A stretch of 37,398 bases of DNA, taken from positions 1 through 37,398 of the forward strand of contig NZ_JARUKW010000027.1 of assembly GCF_029688845.1 (NCBI RefSeq), read 5' to 3'. Below, in pieces: positions 27,338 to 35,650 of the stretch. Made by a program: the position numbers and the translations under genes. Numbering within the stretch: the stretch's first letter is position 1; every line of letters begins with the position of its first letter. The DNA comes from Natronococcus sp. A-GB1. Its GTDB lineage: Archaea; Halobacteriota; Halobacteria; Halobacteriales; Natrialbaceae. The notes under the pieces are model-generated. The model ran no database searches. It was not told the origin of the DNA and was given only the letters and a program-made list of their open reading frames with translations.

Positions 27338-28579
27338 ATGACCAAGTACGACGACCTCTTCGAGACGACAACGCCTAGCGAGAGTGTTTTCACCGATAAA
27401 CGCGCGCTTGACCCGCTCGCTGAGCCTGAAGAGATTGTTGCTCGCGAAGGGCAGGAGCGCGAGCTTGCAACTATTCTCAATGGTATTCACGAGGGGTATC
27501 TTCCGACGACTGTCTCGATCTACGGACCCCCAGGGACTGGTAAGACGCTCACGACCCGGCGAGTCTGTCAGGAATTCGCTGCCCGGCACGACGATGTCGC
27601 TGCCGAATATATCAACCTGAAGGAGTGTCGATCGCTGTTCAGTGCGGCTAACGAAATCCTGTATGAGCTCACGGGTGAGAAGAAAGGCGCCTATGAGGGG
27701 ATCGACGGTGTTTTCGAAGGTATCTGGACAGCATTCGAAGATTATCCGGAGTGGACGGTACTGTTGCTCGATGAGATCGACCATATCCAGCAGGATACGA
27801 ACTACGATCCCAGCGACTTTTTCTACCGGTTACTACGCGGCGAAGGACGACTCCAACGCGATATCGAACTATCGGTGTTTCTCATAAGCAACGAACTCCT
27901 CGAGGTGGATCTGCGACTCGACAGTCGCGTCCAGAGTGCGATGAGCGGCGAGGAAGTGTTCTTCCCACCGTATGGTATCGAAACGCTGCGGAAAGTTCTC
28001 GCTCCCCGTCTCGAGCGAGCGTTCCGGGACAGCGCCCTTCCCGACTCCGTTCGAGACGTCGGTACCAAACAGGCGGCCCGGCGCTGGGGTGACGCACGGA
28101 AGGCACTGACGCTGTTTCGTCAGGCTGGCGAAACTGCGAACGAACGCGGGCTCGAGACGGTCACGGAGGAGTGTCTCGACGCAAATCTCGAGTCGACTGA
28201 ACAGGCAGCCCTCGAAGAGAAGTTACTGAGCCTGCCGTTCAATCACTTTCTCGTCTTGACTGTCGTCGCTAGCGTGCGAGACGCTCAGGGCGACGTCGTC
28301 CAGCCGGTGACGACGAACCAAATCGCCGAACGCATCGACGACGATGCACTGGCCGAGGAGGTCAGCCTCGGCGAGCGCGCGATTCGCGAGGTGCTTACCG
28401 ACCTCGAGACGATGGCTCTCGTGGAGACGTGGATCGACTCCCGAGGTCGCGACGGTCGGGTGAAGCAAGTCGAGACGACGTTCGATCCACAGTGGATTCG
28501 AGACGCGATCATGCCCTATCTCGAGACGACCGATCAGATCTCTCCTGACGAGCTATTTGCATCGCCGGAGTTCGAGTGA
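27338..28579 (+). CDS. Orc1/Cdc6 replication initiator (AAA+)
   Basis: A 413-residue archaeal Orc1/Cdc6 protein. The AAA+ core has Walker A GPPGTGKT (about residues 63-70), Walker B VLLLDEIDHI (about 140-149) and sensor 1 SVFLISNELLEVDLRLDSRV (near 179-198). Sensor 2 lies in AARRWGDARKALTLFRQAGE (near 247-266). The C-terminal winged helix (about 305-400) contains TTNQIAERID and GERAIREVLTDLETMALVE. Haloarchaea carry many such genes on chromosome and plasmids. Most bind origin boxes next to their own gene. This one is in an AT-shifted accessory region with box-like elements on both sides, so it may run a local, plasmid-derived origin. ATG 27338 is the natural start. Confidence 0.93.
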   Translation: MTKYDDLFETTTPSESVFTDKRALDPLAEPEEIVAREGQERELATILNGIHEGYLPTTVSIYGPPGTGKTLTTRRVCQEFAARHDDVAAEYINLKECRSLFSAANEILYELTGEKKGAYEGIDGVFEGIWTAFEDYPEWTVLLLDEIDHIQQDTNYDPSDFFYRLLRGEGRLQRDIELSVFLISNELLEVDLRLDSRVQSAMSGEEVFFPPYGIETLRKVLAPRLERAFRDSALPDSVRDVGTKQAARRWGDARKALTLFRQAGETANERGLETVTEECLDANLESTEQAALEEKLLSLPFNHFLVLTVVASVRDAQGDVVQPVTTNQIAERIDDDALAEEVSLGERAIREVLTDLETMALVETWIDSRGRDGRVKQVETTFDPQWIRDAIMPYLETTDQISPDELFASPEFE

Positions 28580-28658
28580 CCTCACGGAGTAGCTCCCTGT
28601 TCGGAGGGAGGACCACTTCCACTCCGGTTTCCCACCCCTTTTCCGAGTGCCGCCGGTA

Positions 28659-28672
28659 GTTTCCACTGGAGA
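28659..28672. other. Origin-recognition-box-like element after cdc6
   Basis: GTTTCCACTGGAGA shares the core TTCC[AG]CTGGA with the element at 27320. About 30-45 bases to the left there is a C-run, TTTCCCACCCCTTTTCC (28628-28644), a G-run on the other strand as in full haloarchaeal boxes but at an unusual distance. It lies in the gap between cdc6 (ends 28579) and the next gene (28776). Origin function is untested. Confidence 0.35.
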
Positions 28673-28775
28673 TGTATAGAGAAGATTTCCGAGCAAGTAC
28701 AATCTCGTCTTCGAATGCGGTTACCTCTCGTCTCACGAATATCACCTCTCGCAAACTCTCTCCAAGTGAACACCC

Positions 28776-29051
28776 GTGACTAACTCGAAAGCACCCAGCG
28801 AGGACGCCGACCGAAGTGATCGTGAGGAGATTCAGCAGATCCTCTCCCAGAACATCCAGTTTATTCACAATCATCTCGAGGAAATGGACCTGGACTCAAC
28901 GGACGACCAAGAACTGGCGATCAAGTGGATGCGGACTCTCGGCACTCTTTCCGGGCAGTATCGACTGTTAATGAAAGATGCGGATATCGACGAGATGCAG
29001 GACGAACTCGAGCTACTGCAAGACGCCAGAAAGGTGAAATCCGATGAGTAA
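28776..29051 (+). CDS. Small acidic helical protein downstream of cdc6
   Basis: A 91-residue protein starting with GTG. After a polar N-terminus (1-18), most of it is predicted helical: REEIQQILSQNIQFIHNHLE (16-35), DQELAIKWMRTLGTLSGQYR (44-63) and MQDELELLQDARKV (73-86), with Leu/Ile spacing compatible with a helical bundle or coiled coil. I do not recognise the family. It overlaps a 23-codon frame that in turn overlaps the following gene, so it is probably cotranscribed with the 220-residue protein. A role alongside Cdc6 in replication or partition of the element is possible but only by position. Confidence 0.62.
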   Translation: MTNSKAPSEDADRSDREEIQQILSQNIQFIHNHLEEMDLDSTDDQELAIKWMRTLGTLSGQYRLLMKDADIDEMQDELELLQDARKVKSDE

Positions 29052-29115
29052 TCGTACTGATCGGCAGTCAGTGACGACCGATTCGACGCCGCTCAACAGG
29101 AGGGTCGATAGATGA
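29044..29115 (+). CDS. 23-codon open frame bridging two genes
   Basis: The ATG at 29044 lies inside the last codons of the preceding gene, and the TGA at 29113-29115 overlaps the ATG of the next (ATGA). It thus spans exactly the gap between the two, and the strong ribosome binding site of the next gene lies inside it. The peptide is polar and basic with no domain. It may serve only to carry ribosomes across the gap. Confidence 0.3.
   Translation: MSNRTDRQSVTTDSTPLNRRVDR
29098..29104 (+). promoter_or_regulatory. Strong Shine-Dalgarno site
   Basis: AGGAGGG lies 7 bases before ATG 29112 and fixes that start. Strong Shine-Dalgarno sites are uncommon in this window, where many genes look leaderless, and here it fits an internal gene of an operon. 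Confidence 0.7.
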
Positions 29116-29774
29116 CCAAGCGTCGAATCGAACGCGATCTCGAAGAGGTTCGTGAAGAGGTCCTCGAAGACCTGTCACCCGAAGACCGTCTCCAGCTATA
29201 CTTGGAAGCGGCGGCCAAGGAGAAAGACGGGTGGATCGAGAGCCTTCTCGAGACGTGTCCCCGAAGGCGGTATCGCACGACAGATCTCGAGTTCAGCGAA
29301 CGTCGCCAACTCGCATCGACGCTTCGTCTGAATACACTCTACAAGTTACATACGGCCTTGTTAGAGCTTCAGATGCTAAGGCAGCGCCAAGAGTTGACGT
29401 GGATCAATACGGATGGGGACGATGATCTCACCGAATCGGAACGTGAGCGGGCGGATGAGCGAGCCGAAGAGCTCCGATTCCAATATAGTGAACTGTATAC
29501 GCTGTATCACTCCTACCGACAGTTCTCTGAAGAGGTGCTTGGTGTCGATCTCGAGACGTGGCTCGGAAGTCACCCGAACGGACAGCACGTTCTCGAGGTG
29601 ATTACCAAGGAACTCGATAATTCCATCCAGCAGGAACTCGTCGAGGAGGATCTGAATCCGTCCGATGCGGAGCCCGAGGATGATGAGTGGGTTACGATCG
29701 ACGAAATCGCTGACCTTCGATACGAGGAGTATATCAGTATGTGGTCAGATGTGATCGAGGAGCGGACCCCGTGA
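29112..29774 (+). CDS. Hypothetical 220-residue helical acidic protein
   Basis: A soluble protein without signal peptide or membrane segment. It is rich in Glu, Arg and Leu with long predicted helices: RIERDLEEVREEVLEDLSPE (5-24), QLASTLRLNTLYKLHTALLE (66-85), SERERADERAEELRFQYSEL (108-127) and VLEVITKELDNSIQQELVEE (160-179). The C-terminal 40 residues are very acidic. I do not recognise a family. It follows the Cdc6 gene and a small helical protein on the same strand, with a strong ribosome binding site. Its last 41 bases overlap the 3-prime end of the convergent 850-residue protein gene, an unusually long coding overlap that suggests both belong to one long-lived module. Confidence 0.65.
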   Translation: MTKRRIERDLEEVREEVLEDLSPEDRLQLYLEAAAKEKDGWIESLLETCPRRRYRTTDLEFSERRQLASTLRLNTLYKLHTALLELQMLRQRQELTWINTDGDDDLTESERERADERAEELRFQYSELYTLYHSYRQFSEEVLGVDLETWLGSHPNGQHVLEVITKELDNSIQQELVEEDLNPSDAEPEDDEWVTIDEIADLRYEEYISMWSDVIEERTP

Positions 29775-32434: not shown

Positions 32435-32788
32435 TTACCGGTGTGTGGCAGGAGTCGCCGTGTTGGTGGGCTCGCTCACGTCCTGGAGCTCGGGCTCGAG
32501 GACGACCAGCCTGGTTTGCTGGGTGGCGAGGTCGGCCCGGGTGCCGAGCCGACACTGGGCGAGCAGTTCCGTACAGCCCAGCGTCGGCTGGGAAATGGTG
32601 TCGGGACTACAGGCCACACAGTAGGGCCGATGGATCGCCCAGCGGTCGGTGTCGGCCGGCCGGGATGCGAGGACGGTCACGCGGTCGCCTTCGTACAGTG
32701 TGGTCCCGCAGTGCTGGCACGCGGTAGTGCCCTGGAGTCCGATTGGGAACCCTTCGAGGAGTTGCTCGGCGGTGGTGGTGACCCTCAT
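32435..32788 (-). CDS. Small CxxC...CxxC zinc-ribbon-like protein
   Basis: A 117-residue protein with two Cys pairs, CQHC at residues 24-27 and CVAC at 57-60, separated by about 30 residues that read as short strands (GDRVTVLASRPADTDRWAIH). This is the layout of a small zinc ribbon. The C-terminal half is polar. The frame is open upstream, but ATG 32788 is chosen because it overlaps the stop of the preceding gene (ATGA) and starts a normal acidic sequence. It may bind nucleic acid or act as an adaptor for the large protein encoded next, 146 bases downstream. Confidence 0.66.
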   Translation of the reverse strand: MRVTTTAEQLLEGFPIGLQGTTACQHCGTTLYEGDRVTVLASRPADTDRWAIHRPYCVACSPDTISQPTLGCTELLAQCRLGTRADLATQQTRLVVLEPELQDVSEPTNTATPATHR

Positions 32789-33105: not shown

Positions 33106-33407
33106 TAGGCTTCCCCTCCCCCGATCGCGTCAGCGAGTGCGTCCGCGAGCCCTGTGTAGAGGTGTTGCGTCGGAAAGCCGCGGCGGGTCGTGACGTAGTT
33201 GATCCAGTCATCGATCGTTTGTTCGAGGGCCTCGAGGTCGTAGCGGTAGGTGCGCTCGGGACCATCGATAACGTGGACGGTCTCGTCGGTCGTCCGATAG
33301 ACGTGGTGGGCGCCCTCGGTGTCGATGCCGACGAGAATGTAGTCTGGTCGGAGGTCAGTGCGACTGCGAGCCGAAACCGTTTCGGTCGTGCGTGTTGGAG
33401 TTGACAT
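33105..33407 (-). CDS. First gene of the cassette, small hypothetical protein
   Basis: A 100-residue protein: RPDYILVGIDTEGAHHVYRT (20-39), TVHVIDGPERTYRYDLEALE (44-63) and QTIDDWINYVTTRRGFPTQH (64-83) give a small alpha/beta layout with a helix after three strands. The end is Ala/Asp-rich. I do not recognise the family. The coding sequence contains a perfect 15-base palindrome, CCGAAACCGTTTCGG, at 33371-33385. The gene starts two bases after a hairpin-forming leader and is the first of four genes (down to 29734) that are probably transcribed together from the divergent promoter region shared with the winged-helix regulator. Confidence 0.66.
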   Translation of the reverse strand: MSTPTRTTETVSARSRTDLRPDYILVGIDTEGAHHVYRTTDETVHVIDGPERTYRYDLEALEQTIDDWINYVTTRRGFPTQHLYTGLADALADAIGGGEA

Positions 33408-33408
33408 T

Positions 33409-33478
33409 GGTCTGTTGCTCCAGACCGAGGTCGGCTGTCCCTAGCAGCCGGCCAGGATTTTCCCGGCGTCCTCGGTCT
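33409..33478 (-). promoter_or_regulatory. Structured 5-prime leader: three-way junction with competing start-site hairpin
   Basis: Bases 33422-33478 fold into three helices: P1, AGACCGAGG with CCTCGGTCT (33422-33430/33470-33478, 9 bp); a 6-bp hairpin CGGCTG/CAGCCG (33432-33437/33445-33450, 7-base loop); and a 6-bp hairpin at 33451-33456/33462-33467 (5-base loop). Junction strands are only 0-2 bases. In the last hairpin the plus strand has an A-C mismatch, which in minus-strand RNA is a G-U pair, so the fold favours RNA transcribed toward the cassette. GGTCTG (33409-33414) and CAGACC (33421-33426) form an alternative hairpin that shares bases with P1, covers a GGAG ribosome-binding sequence and ends one base from the ATG at 33407. 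The two states exclude each other, as in a riboswitch or protein-binding leader. Function is inference. Confidence 0.5.
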
Positions 33479-33504: not shown

Positions 33505-33512
33505 CTTATAGT
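33505..33512 (-). promoter_or_regulatory. TATA-like box of the minus-strand cassette
   Basis: Read on the minus strand, ACTATAAG lies about 27-34 bases before position 33478, so a transcript from it would begin just before the three-way junction. It overlaps the first of three operator-like 10-mers. A second AT-rich stretch at 33484-33495 (TTATACTATAGA on the minus strand) is an alternative box but would start the RNA inside the structure. Confidence 0.45.
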
Positions 33513-33583
33513 TTACTGTAGTCAATTACGTCGTAGTATACAAAAGTAAACCATTTGCATGAGTGAAGACAATAGTAAACTAT
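33508..33583. promoter_or_regulatory. Three operator-like 10-mers between divergent genes
   Basis: ATAGTTTACT (33508-33517), AGTAAACCAT (33545-33554) and AGTAAACTAT (33574-33583) are one 10-mer, the first in inverted orientation, the second with one mismatch. The first overlaps the cassette TATA box; the second follows a TATA-like GTATACAA (33536-33543) facing the regulator gene; the third overlaps the regulator ATG at 33582. This is the expected layout for an autoregulated repressor controlling both directions. Confidence 0.55.
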
Positions 33584-34551: not shown

Positions 34552-35650
34552 AGCGTTGACCCCTTTGGAAGCGTATTTTTCTCGATGAGCAACAGTCAGC
34601 GTGGTTTGTTGGTGCGGTATCTGTCTGAAGAAGAATTCGATCAAGCGATTGAATCGGCCCAGGAGGCGGACGAGAGCCGTCTCGTCCGGCGACTGTGTTA
34701 CATCAAGAATCTCTATCTGGGAGAGACACGCAAGCAAGCAGGTCGACGCGTCGGGATTTCCCGGTCCACGACGCGTCGGTGGGCACTGGCGTGGAACGAT
34801 GGTGGCGTAGAGGGTCTCCACCCACGCTTCGGCGGCGGCCGGCCGCCGAAGCTCACCCCGCAACAGGGGGGCGAACTCTGTGAGATTCTCGAAGAGGGTC
34901 AACCATGGACTCCGAAGCAGATTCACGCGCTTATCGAAGACCGATACAGCGTCACGTACCACCCGTCCCATCTCAGCCGAAAACTTCGAGAAGCAGGCAT
35001 GAACTACGCCAAACCGCGGCCGATGGATCCACGACGACCCGACGATGCTGAAGAGATTCTCGCCGAGCGCCTGATCAAGGCGCTCGGCGAGGACGACCCG
35101 GAGGAGCCAGACAAAAAGGAAGAAGACCCGGTCGTGTTCGGGTTCTTTCGATGAAGCGTGGCCACAACCGTTCGACAACTCTCAGCGAATGTGGTCGTTC
35201 GACCGGCCGGTGACGATCGAGAAACCGCTGATAACGTTTCCCAAGCGGTCGATTGCTTCTACGCGCTCACTGGCCAGAGCGTACTCACGTTCAAAGAACG
35301 GTTGGTCAAAGAGACGATCGTTGAGGCACTCGAAGAGATCCGCGAGCAGAATCCCGTCGGACGGATTCTGCTCGTAGCCGACAACTACGGCTCTCATCAC
35401 GCAAACCTCACCCAACAACGGGCCGACGAACTCGACATCGAGTTCGTCTTCATCCCGCCGTATTCACCGACGTTAAACGCCATCGAACCGCTGTGGAAAG
35501 ATCTGAAGCGCGAGATCTCGCCAGAGATCTTCGCGGACCGAGATCTCTTCAGAGCGTTCCTCACCGAGACATTTCTCCGCTTGAGCCATCGGCTGAGTTT
35601 CGCTAGTGAGTGGATCGAGACGTTCCTTCCAGATGTTCAAAGGTTACGCT
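34552..35650. mobile_element. Nested IS630-type insertion sequence
   Basis: The boundaries are approximate. They are placed at weakly similar inverted ends, AGCGTTGACCCCTTTG (left, 34552) and AGCGTAACCTTTG (complement of the right end, 35638-35650), and by where homology to the outer transposase stops and restarts. About 1.1 kb is normal for this group. No clear TA target duplication could be identified. Confidence 0.6.

Follow-up and report, generated by a model that had tools for sequence, protein, structure and literature searches.

The 37,398-nucleotide stretch of Natronococcus sp. A-GB1 DNA analyzed here (the window; contig 20 of a 4.5-Mb genome) carries, just ahead of a minus-strand operon, a short structured RNA that is very likely a cis-acting bistable mRNA leader belonging to an RNA class widespread on haloarchaeal plasmids, viruses, and integrated elements. 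In our interpretation, these leaders form a new class of cis-regulatory RNA whose role on mobile elements is to gate the translation of early or replication operons; the leader is apparently undescribed as a class and is of a known kind, the mRNA-leader switch. An Rfam 15 search of the window leader gave best matches with E values of 3 to 7, far below the gathering scores, and thus no family membership, in keeping with the original prediction of a riboswitch-like element, which had recognized no known class in it. A literature search found no earlier description of the leader (the original phiH papers of the 1990s lie outside that search), and a 104-motif survey, when searched, revealed no comparable archaeal motif. 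To our knowledge, very few cis-regulatory RNAs have been described in haloarchaea, and what is known of early-gene regulation in archaeal plasmids and viruses concerns repressors almost exclusively. With a two-state leader preceding the early or replication operons of mobile elements in nearly half of the haloarchaeal genomes sampled, lysogeny and plasmid control in archaea would gain a further layer, at the RNA level, and haloarchaeal genetics a naturally occurring expression switch; the proposal can be tested directly in Haloferax volcanii, which has a weaker relative on pHV2, and in the classical phiH system.

Folding of the minus-strand RNA from 33482 to 33405 gives a minimum free energy of −36.6 kcal/mol (z −4.5), a stability equaled by none of 200 shuffled sequences. 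The fold is a three-way junction (33479–33405) in which a 9-bp closing helix, P1 (33478–33470 paired with 33430–33422), encloses the hairpins P2 (7 bp) and P3 (6 bp), with junction strands of AC, zero, and A (Table 1). The closing helix and two hairpins proposed from the sequence are thus confirmed, with one amendment: both hairpins had been put at 6 bp, which is correct for P3, and P2 is one pair longer. The plus strand folds less stably (z −3.4), and its single mismatch, located in P2, becomes a G–U pair in the minus-strand RNA, as had been predicted. About 150 loci have this architecture, with compensatory changes between them, and the structure in the window is thus not due to chance.

Table 1. 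Features of the leader and its surroundings, in window coordinates.
Feature	Position	Strand	Basis or remarks
P1 5′ arm (strand 1), AGACCGAGG	33470–33478	−	RNA fold; covariation of the homologous helix
P2 hairpin, GCCGGGA-AAA-UCCUGGC	33451–33467	−	Fold; covariation
P3 hairpin, CGGCUG-CUAGGGA-CAGCCG, then junction A (33431)	33432–33450	−	Fold; covariation; conservation
P1 3′ arm (strand 2), CCUCGGUCU; outer GGUCU common to P1 and P4	33422–33430	−	Fold
P4 alternative hairpin, GGUCUG-GAGCAA-CAGACC	33409–33426	−	Sequence; P4 tests on 111 loci and 40 hold-out loci
TATA-like box TATAAG, 26–31 nt upstream of the element	33505–33510	−	Sequence; upstream logo of 112 loci; putative function
Inverted repeat ATAGTTTACTGTAGTC...GACAATAGTAAACTAT, arms 33508–33523 and 33568–33583	33508–33583		Putative function
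Divergent winged-helix regulator gene, 126 aa	33582–33962	+	Positional counterpart of phiH/phiCh1 repR
First gene, 100 aa	33105–33407	−	phrog_32485 match, E 2.1e-9
Second gene, 106 aa	32785–33105	−	
Third gene, 117 aa, Cys-rich	32435–32788	−	
RepH-type plasmid/virus replication protein, 858 aa	29734–32310	−	phrog_17376, E 1.6e-134; repH of ChaoS9, phiH, and phiCh1

The same junction, very different in sequence, stands upstream of about 26 homologues of the 100-aa first gene. MAFFT misaligned the helices of leaders this divergent, and the covariance model was therefore seeded on a clean subset; this first model, built from 11 leaders, matched 100 of the 391 genomes of the class that were searched. 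A rebuilt model of 99 elements (R2), applied with a cut-off of E ≤ 0.001, matched 173 of these 391 haloarchaeal genomes, representing 65 of 86 genera. When 393 genomes were drawn from across the phylum, 34 matched, all of them in the same genus, family, or order as the window, and this restricted distribution doubles as a specificity control. The window element, itself one of the 99 training sequences, scores 56.4 bits under R2 (E 1.1e-9 in its own genome), and it combines the two features that define the class, a P1–P2–P3 junction recognized by the covariance model and a P4 helix at the AUG (see below). Two further good copies are present in the same genome, and R2 matches on named records include pHTUR03, N. 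occultus plasmid 2, and a Natrinema halophilum plasmid, with weak matches on pHV2 (H. volcanii) and pHG4 (H. gibbonsii), both directly upstream of a small gene. The leader is also carried by viral contigs in IMG/VR. One such contig (IMGVR_UViG_3300023197_000205) bears the leader twice, with a tyrosine recombinase gene behind one of the two copies; six IMG/VR pattern matches with no ATG (L292, L296, L300, L304, L308, and L320) are probably chance and were rejected. A sub-group of near-identical elements (L140, L141, L178, L183, and L184), which have a common first peptide beginning MFAYILTGYKHPA and, in one genus, are present more than once per genome, has the appearance of a repeat in recent expansion.

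The compensatory changes expected of homologous leaders, a check that the original prediction had proposed, are abundant. The 99-element alignment was fitted to the model and hence leans towards structure; in it, 95.6% of pairing cells are paired, and 22 of the 23 pairs of P1–P3 have changed on both sides, with 476 such cells compared with 129 in shuffles (none of 500 shuffles is as high). Sliding the pairing partners abolishes the signal. Under a tree-based null with independent columns, 14 of the 23 junction pairs exceed everything in 200 simulations, as does a contact closing the P3 loop that varies among C-A, U-G, and G-A, with the reservations that the simulated alignments changed less per column than the data (10.8 versus 14.0 parsimony steps), so that the null is approximate, and that the loci are related by descent, a kinship that such a null handles only approximately. 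Given the leaning of the alignment, independent support comes from the elements that were first spotted by eye in unaligned sequence and from P4. Among the unpaired parts, the junction A is kept in 88 of 99 elements, the P2 loop is A-rich, and the P3 loop is mostly a U/G-N-N-A tetraloop. G–U cells outnumber A–C cells by 147 to 47, the bias expected of a structure that functions on the mRNA strand; this agrees with the prediction that the minus-strand leader is the active molecule and disfavors, at least in its pure form, the DNA cruciform that had been offered as an alternative.

The alternative hairpin, P4, lies outside the covariance models and was examined by pairing the 9 nt before the first ATG with the end of the element, a procedure that uses no alignment. 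Across 111 loci, the P4 helix averages 5.80 bp and reaches at least 5 bp in 91, compared with a mean of 3.70 bp when strands are swapped among loci (maximum of 1000 swaps, 4.08) and 3.62 bp in an ORF control segment; in the other 20 loci P4 is under 5 bp, and L066, L128, and L129 are loci with a shorter or absent P4. The result was reproduced in 40 hold-out loci chosen by junction score alone, all 40 of which have an ATG within 28 nt and 38 of which have a P4 of at least 5 bp (swapped strands: mean 22, maximum 28; ORF control: 11). These two tests are the unbiased ones; the P4 pairs that entered the tree-based covariation test came from a complementarity search and are biased. An ATG follows within 28 nt in 111 of 112 elements, and the distance from the end of P4 to the AUG is 0 or 1 nt in 99 of 108 cases. 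In the window, P4 is 6 bp long and ends one base before the ATG (33407–33405), and the original claim that one fold abuts the start codon holds.

The claim that the two folds are mutually exclusive is upheld in a narrower form, in that exclusion is limited to the outer 5 to 6 bp of P1 and does not extend over the whole junction, so that either state is compatible with P2, P3, and the inner pairs of P1. The median difference between the P1 and P4 folds is 0.6 kcal/mol (interquartile range −1.2 to +2.5, n = 94), in nearest-neighbor energies for 1 M NaCl and 37 °C, from which the haloarchaeal cytoplasm differs; in the window copy, P1 is favored by about 4 kcal/mol, and this copy may thus sit mostly in the P1 fold. 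In many loci the 5′ arm of P4 reaches 1 to 2 nt past P1, as a toehold. A bistable switch requires just such a pair of conserved helices, drawing on a shared strand, close in energy, and fixed in place at the start codon. The leader shares two features with riboswitches, a position in the mRNA leader and mutually exclusive alternative folds that involve the start site, with P1 and P4 both conserved and coupled. Separately, L128 and L129 have a good three-way junction and no P4 at the ATG, and both lie ahead of a 130- to 140-aa gene beginning MNTKTRDGNKR; L129 is the second copy in the genome of the window (contig C2), and the type is possibly a variant with another expression platform.

The prediction that the start-site hairpin covers a GGAG is correct for the window, where the P4 loop contains most of this motif, but it does not generalize: no more than 39 of 94 leaders contain a 4-mer resembling a Shine-Dalgarno site (shuffling predicts 23), and masking of a Shine-Dalgarno site in P4 was rejected as a general mechanism. 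A Shine-Dalgarno sequence is not a strict requirement for translation in haloarchaea (PMC8241225), and together with these counts this makes occlusion of the start codon the better general model.

Sequences upstream of the element point to where the leader would begin. Across 112 loci, a TATA-like signal lies about 27 to 31 nt upstream of P1 and places the transcript start at the P1 5′ end. The original prediction would have been undercut by a start downstream of 33430; the window box and the annotated phiH T4 transcript (see below) both indicate a start at P1, and the leader structure should therefore be transcribed. The inverted repeat in the window, which overlaps both the TATA box and the beginning of the divergent regulator gene, is probably a repressor operator, and many homologous loci show similar repeats. 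In most of the 23 loci examined, a small winged-helix gene is encoded divergently about 100 to 130 bp upstream.

A comparable arrangement is found in the L region of the viruses phiH and phiCh1 (repR-T4-repH), where a divergent winged-helix repressor gene, a junction at the annotated T4 start, and a downstream repH recur. In phiH, whose transcripts were mapped, the early lytic transcript T4 has its annotated start at record position 34556, and this base opens a GACGAAGG...CCUUCGUC helix. Two hairpins lie inside the helix, the P3 loop reads CUGGUAU, and the three-way junction has a z of −6.6; phiCh1 has a counterpart. These leaders differ from the window element in their longer P1, greater length (about 170 nt), extra hairpins, and distance from the AUG; R2 did not match them, and we consider them likely members of the class on the strength of matching by eye and folding. 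In phiH, the P1 3′ arm (GCCUUC) has a second partner (GAAGGC) that is itself part of a further hairpin. This alternative partner is held by a second strong hairpin of the T4 leader (GAAGGCACU...AGUGUCUUC; L035, 4705–4870), and the phiH T4 leader as a whole has an attenuator-like 1:2 / 2:3 / 3:4 arrangement.

Loci related to that of the window are found in five other species of its genus, and relatives occur on named plasmids of Natronococcus occultus, Haloterrigena turkmenica, and others. For the 100-aa protein, a sequence-only search of genome contigs and viral contigs gave no match, a separate genome search gave the homologues, and phage records contained no relative. The first genes behind the leader fall into many unrelated groups, comprising the family of the window (44 loci), SWIM-finger proteins (10), small Cys-containing proteins (10), and others found singly, and further downstream genes include ParB, homing endonuclease, HNH, and terminase-like genes. 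The leader heads a rep operon in the window (RepH) and on several plasmids, and at many other loci the annotated genes downstream do not include a rep gene. Because the first genes are unrelated and the divergent winged-helix gene is present in most examined loci, the common factor is the leader with its promoter/repressor module and not a protein. Autoregulation by the first gene product is thus unlikely, and an intrinsic, host-factor, or metabolite trigger is favored.

We propose that transcription would begin at the 5′ end of P1, from a promoter flanked by the divergent winged-helix repressor gene, and that the new transcript would fold first into the P1–P2–P3 junction, with its 5′ end buried or sheltered and the start codon region single-stranded (the presumed ON state). 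The strand ending 0 to 2 nt before the AUG would then take over the P1 3′ arm, and P4 would close the start region (the presumed OFF state); a factor, an antisense RNA, or time would set the P1/P4 balance and with it translation of the first gene. Since the two folds are close in energy, any factor or rate that favors one of them would set first-gene translation. In the window, the switch would set the operon leading to RepH and so probably plasmid establishment or copy number. We think it quite possible, if short of probable, that the leaders form a signal-sensing switch class of archaeal mobile elements, in which one conserved junction sensor is reused before replication, recombination, and other early operons, adding an RNA-level activation decision atop the winged-helix repressor in answer to a host molecule or protein.

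What would set the balance can be weighed against the same data. Binding of a host or element protein to P2/P3 or to the junction, which would lock one fold in the manner of ribosomal-protein and phage-coat translational operators, has a modest chance of being correct: the conserved stem-loops with covarying loop closure are consistent with it, and the presence of the leader on unrelated elements within one order suggests a shared host factor, but no candidate RNA-binding protein was identified, and the unrelated first-gene products make simple autoregulation unlikely. A kinetic timer or antisense-triggered attenuator, in which P1 forms first and P4 later or once an antisense RNA captures strand 1, would allow only newly made transcripts to be translated, a principle familiar from the control of plasmid copy number. 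This mechanism likewise has a modest chance of being correct; the near-equal fold energies, the toehold of P4, and the replication protein made by the window operon are consistent with it, as is the antisense RNA control for which the phiH L region is known, though on T1 and not T4 (PMC6210493), whereas an antisense promoter was not found, at many loci the first gene is not a replication gene, and the P3 loops have no strict kissing-loop motif. The countertranscript-controlled leaders of pT181, pIP501, and R1 likewise combine a rep operon, alternative leader pairings, and a transcriptional repressor, but the present class is archaeal, has yielded no antisense RNA, and also precedes non-replication genes. 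In hok-type mRNAs, metastable 5′ structures are found in which folding order and alternative helices would control translation; unlike in these, no toxin–antitoxin pair or 3′ processing was seen here.

A riboswitch in the strict sense, in which a small molecule or ion binds the three-way junction, stabilizes P1, and so sets the P1/P4 balance, is unlikely. The compact junction with its conserved unpaired bases and the expression platform at the AUG would suit such a mechanism, and translational riboswitches similarly place a junction-type domain and a mutually exclusive start-site hairpin in a 5′ leader; the loop sequences, however, are only moderately conserved for a ligand pocket, and the class resides on mobile elements, has no Rfam match, and precedes replication, recombinase, SWIM-finger, and other mobile-element proteins with no metabolic theme. 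Finally, it is highly improbable that the element acts at the DNA level, as a cruciform or protein site, or that it is a passive 5′ stem that only shields the mRNA from nucleases. The plus strand folds too, and a stem starting at the predicted transcript start would be protective, but G–U cells exceed A–C cells, and neither passive protection nor a cruciform needs a P4 that is conserved at the AUG and coupled to P1.

Several further observations concern the genes around the leader. A nucleotide motif at codons 9 to 13 (GAAAnnGTTTCG or GAAAAGCGTACCG), 24 to 36 nt after the A of the ATG, recurs in unrelated first genes and lies at 33383–33371 (−) in the window; codon 9 is GAA 47 times and never GAG, which is the commoner codon elsewhere in these genes. 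In a subset of loci, a hairpin of variable sequence has the motif in its loop (GCCGGA-CUUGAAGAC-UCCGGC is one case); a general hairpin in codons 7 to 14 was rejected, as stems around codon 9 are no commoner than at control positions. In L124 (1575–2462), the leader precedes a RAMP-like gene (its match to a RAMP family associated with type III CRISPR systems is weak, E 6e-4) beside glycosyltransferase-like genes. An Orc1/Cdc6-like gene followed by two small genes is found in the window (27338–29774, convergent to repH) and again in L130 (3110–5777), where the set adjoins another copy of the element from a different family.
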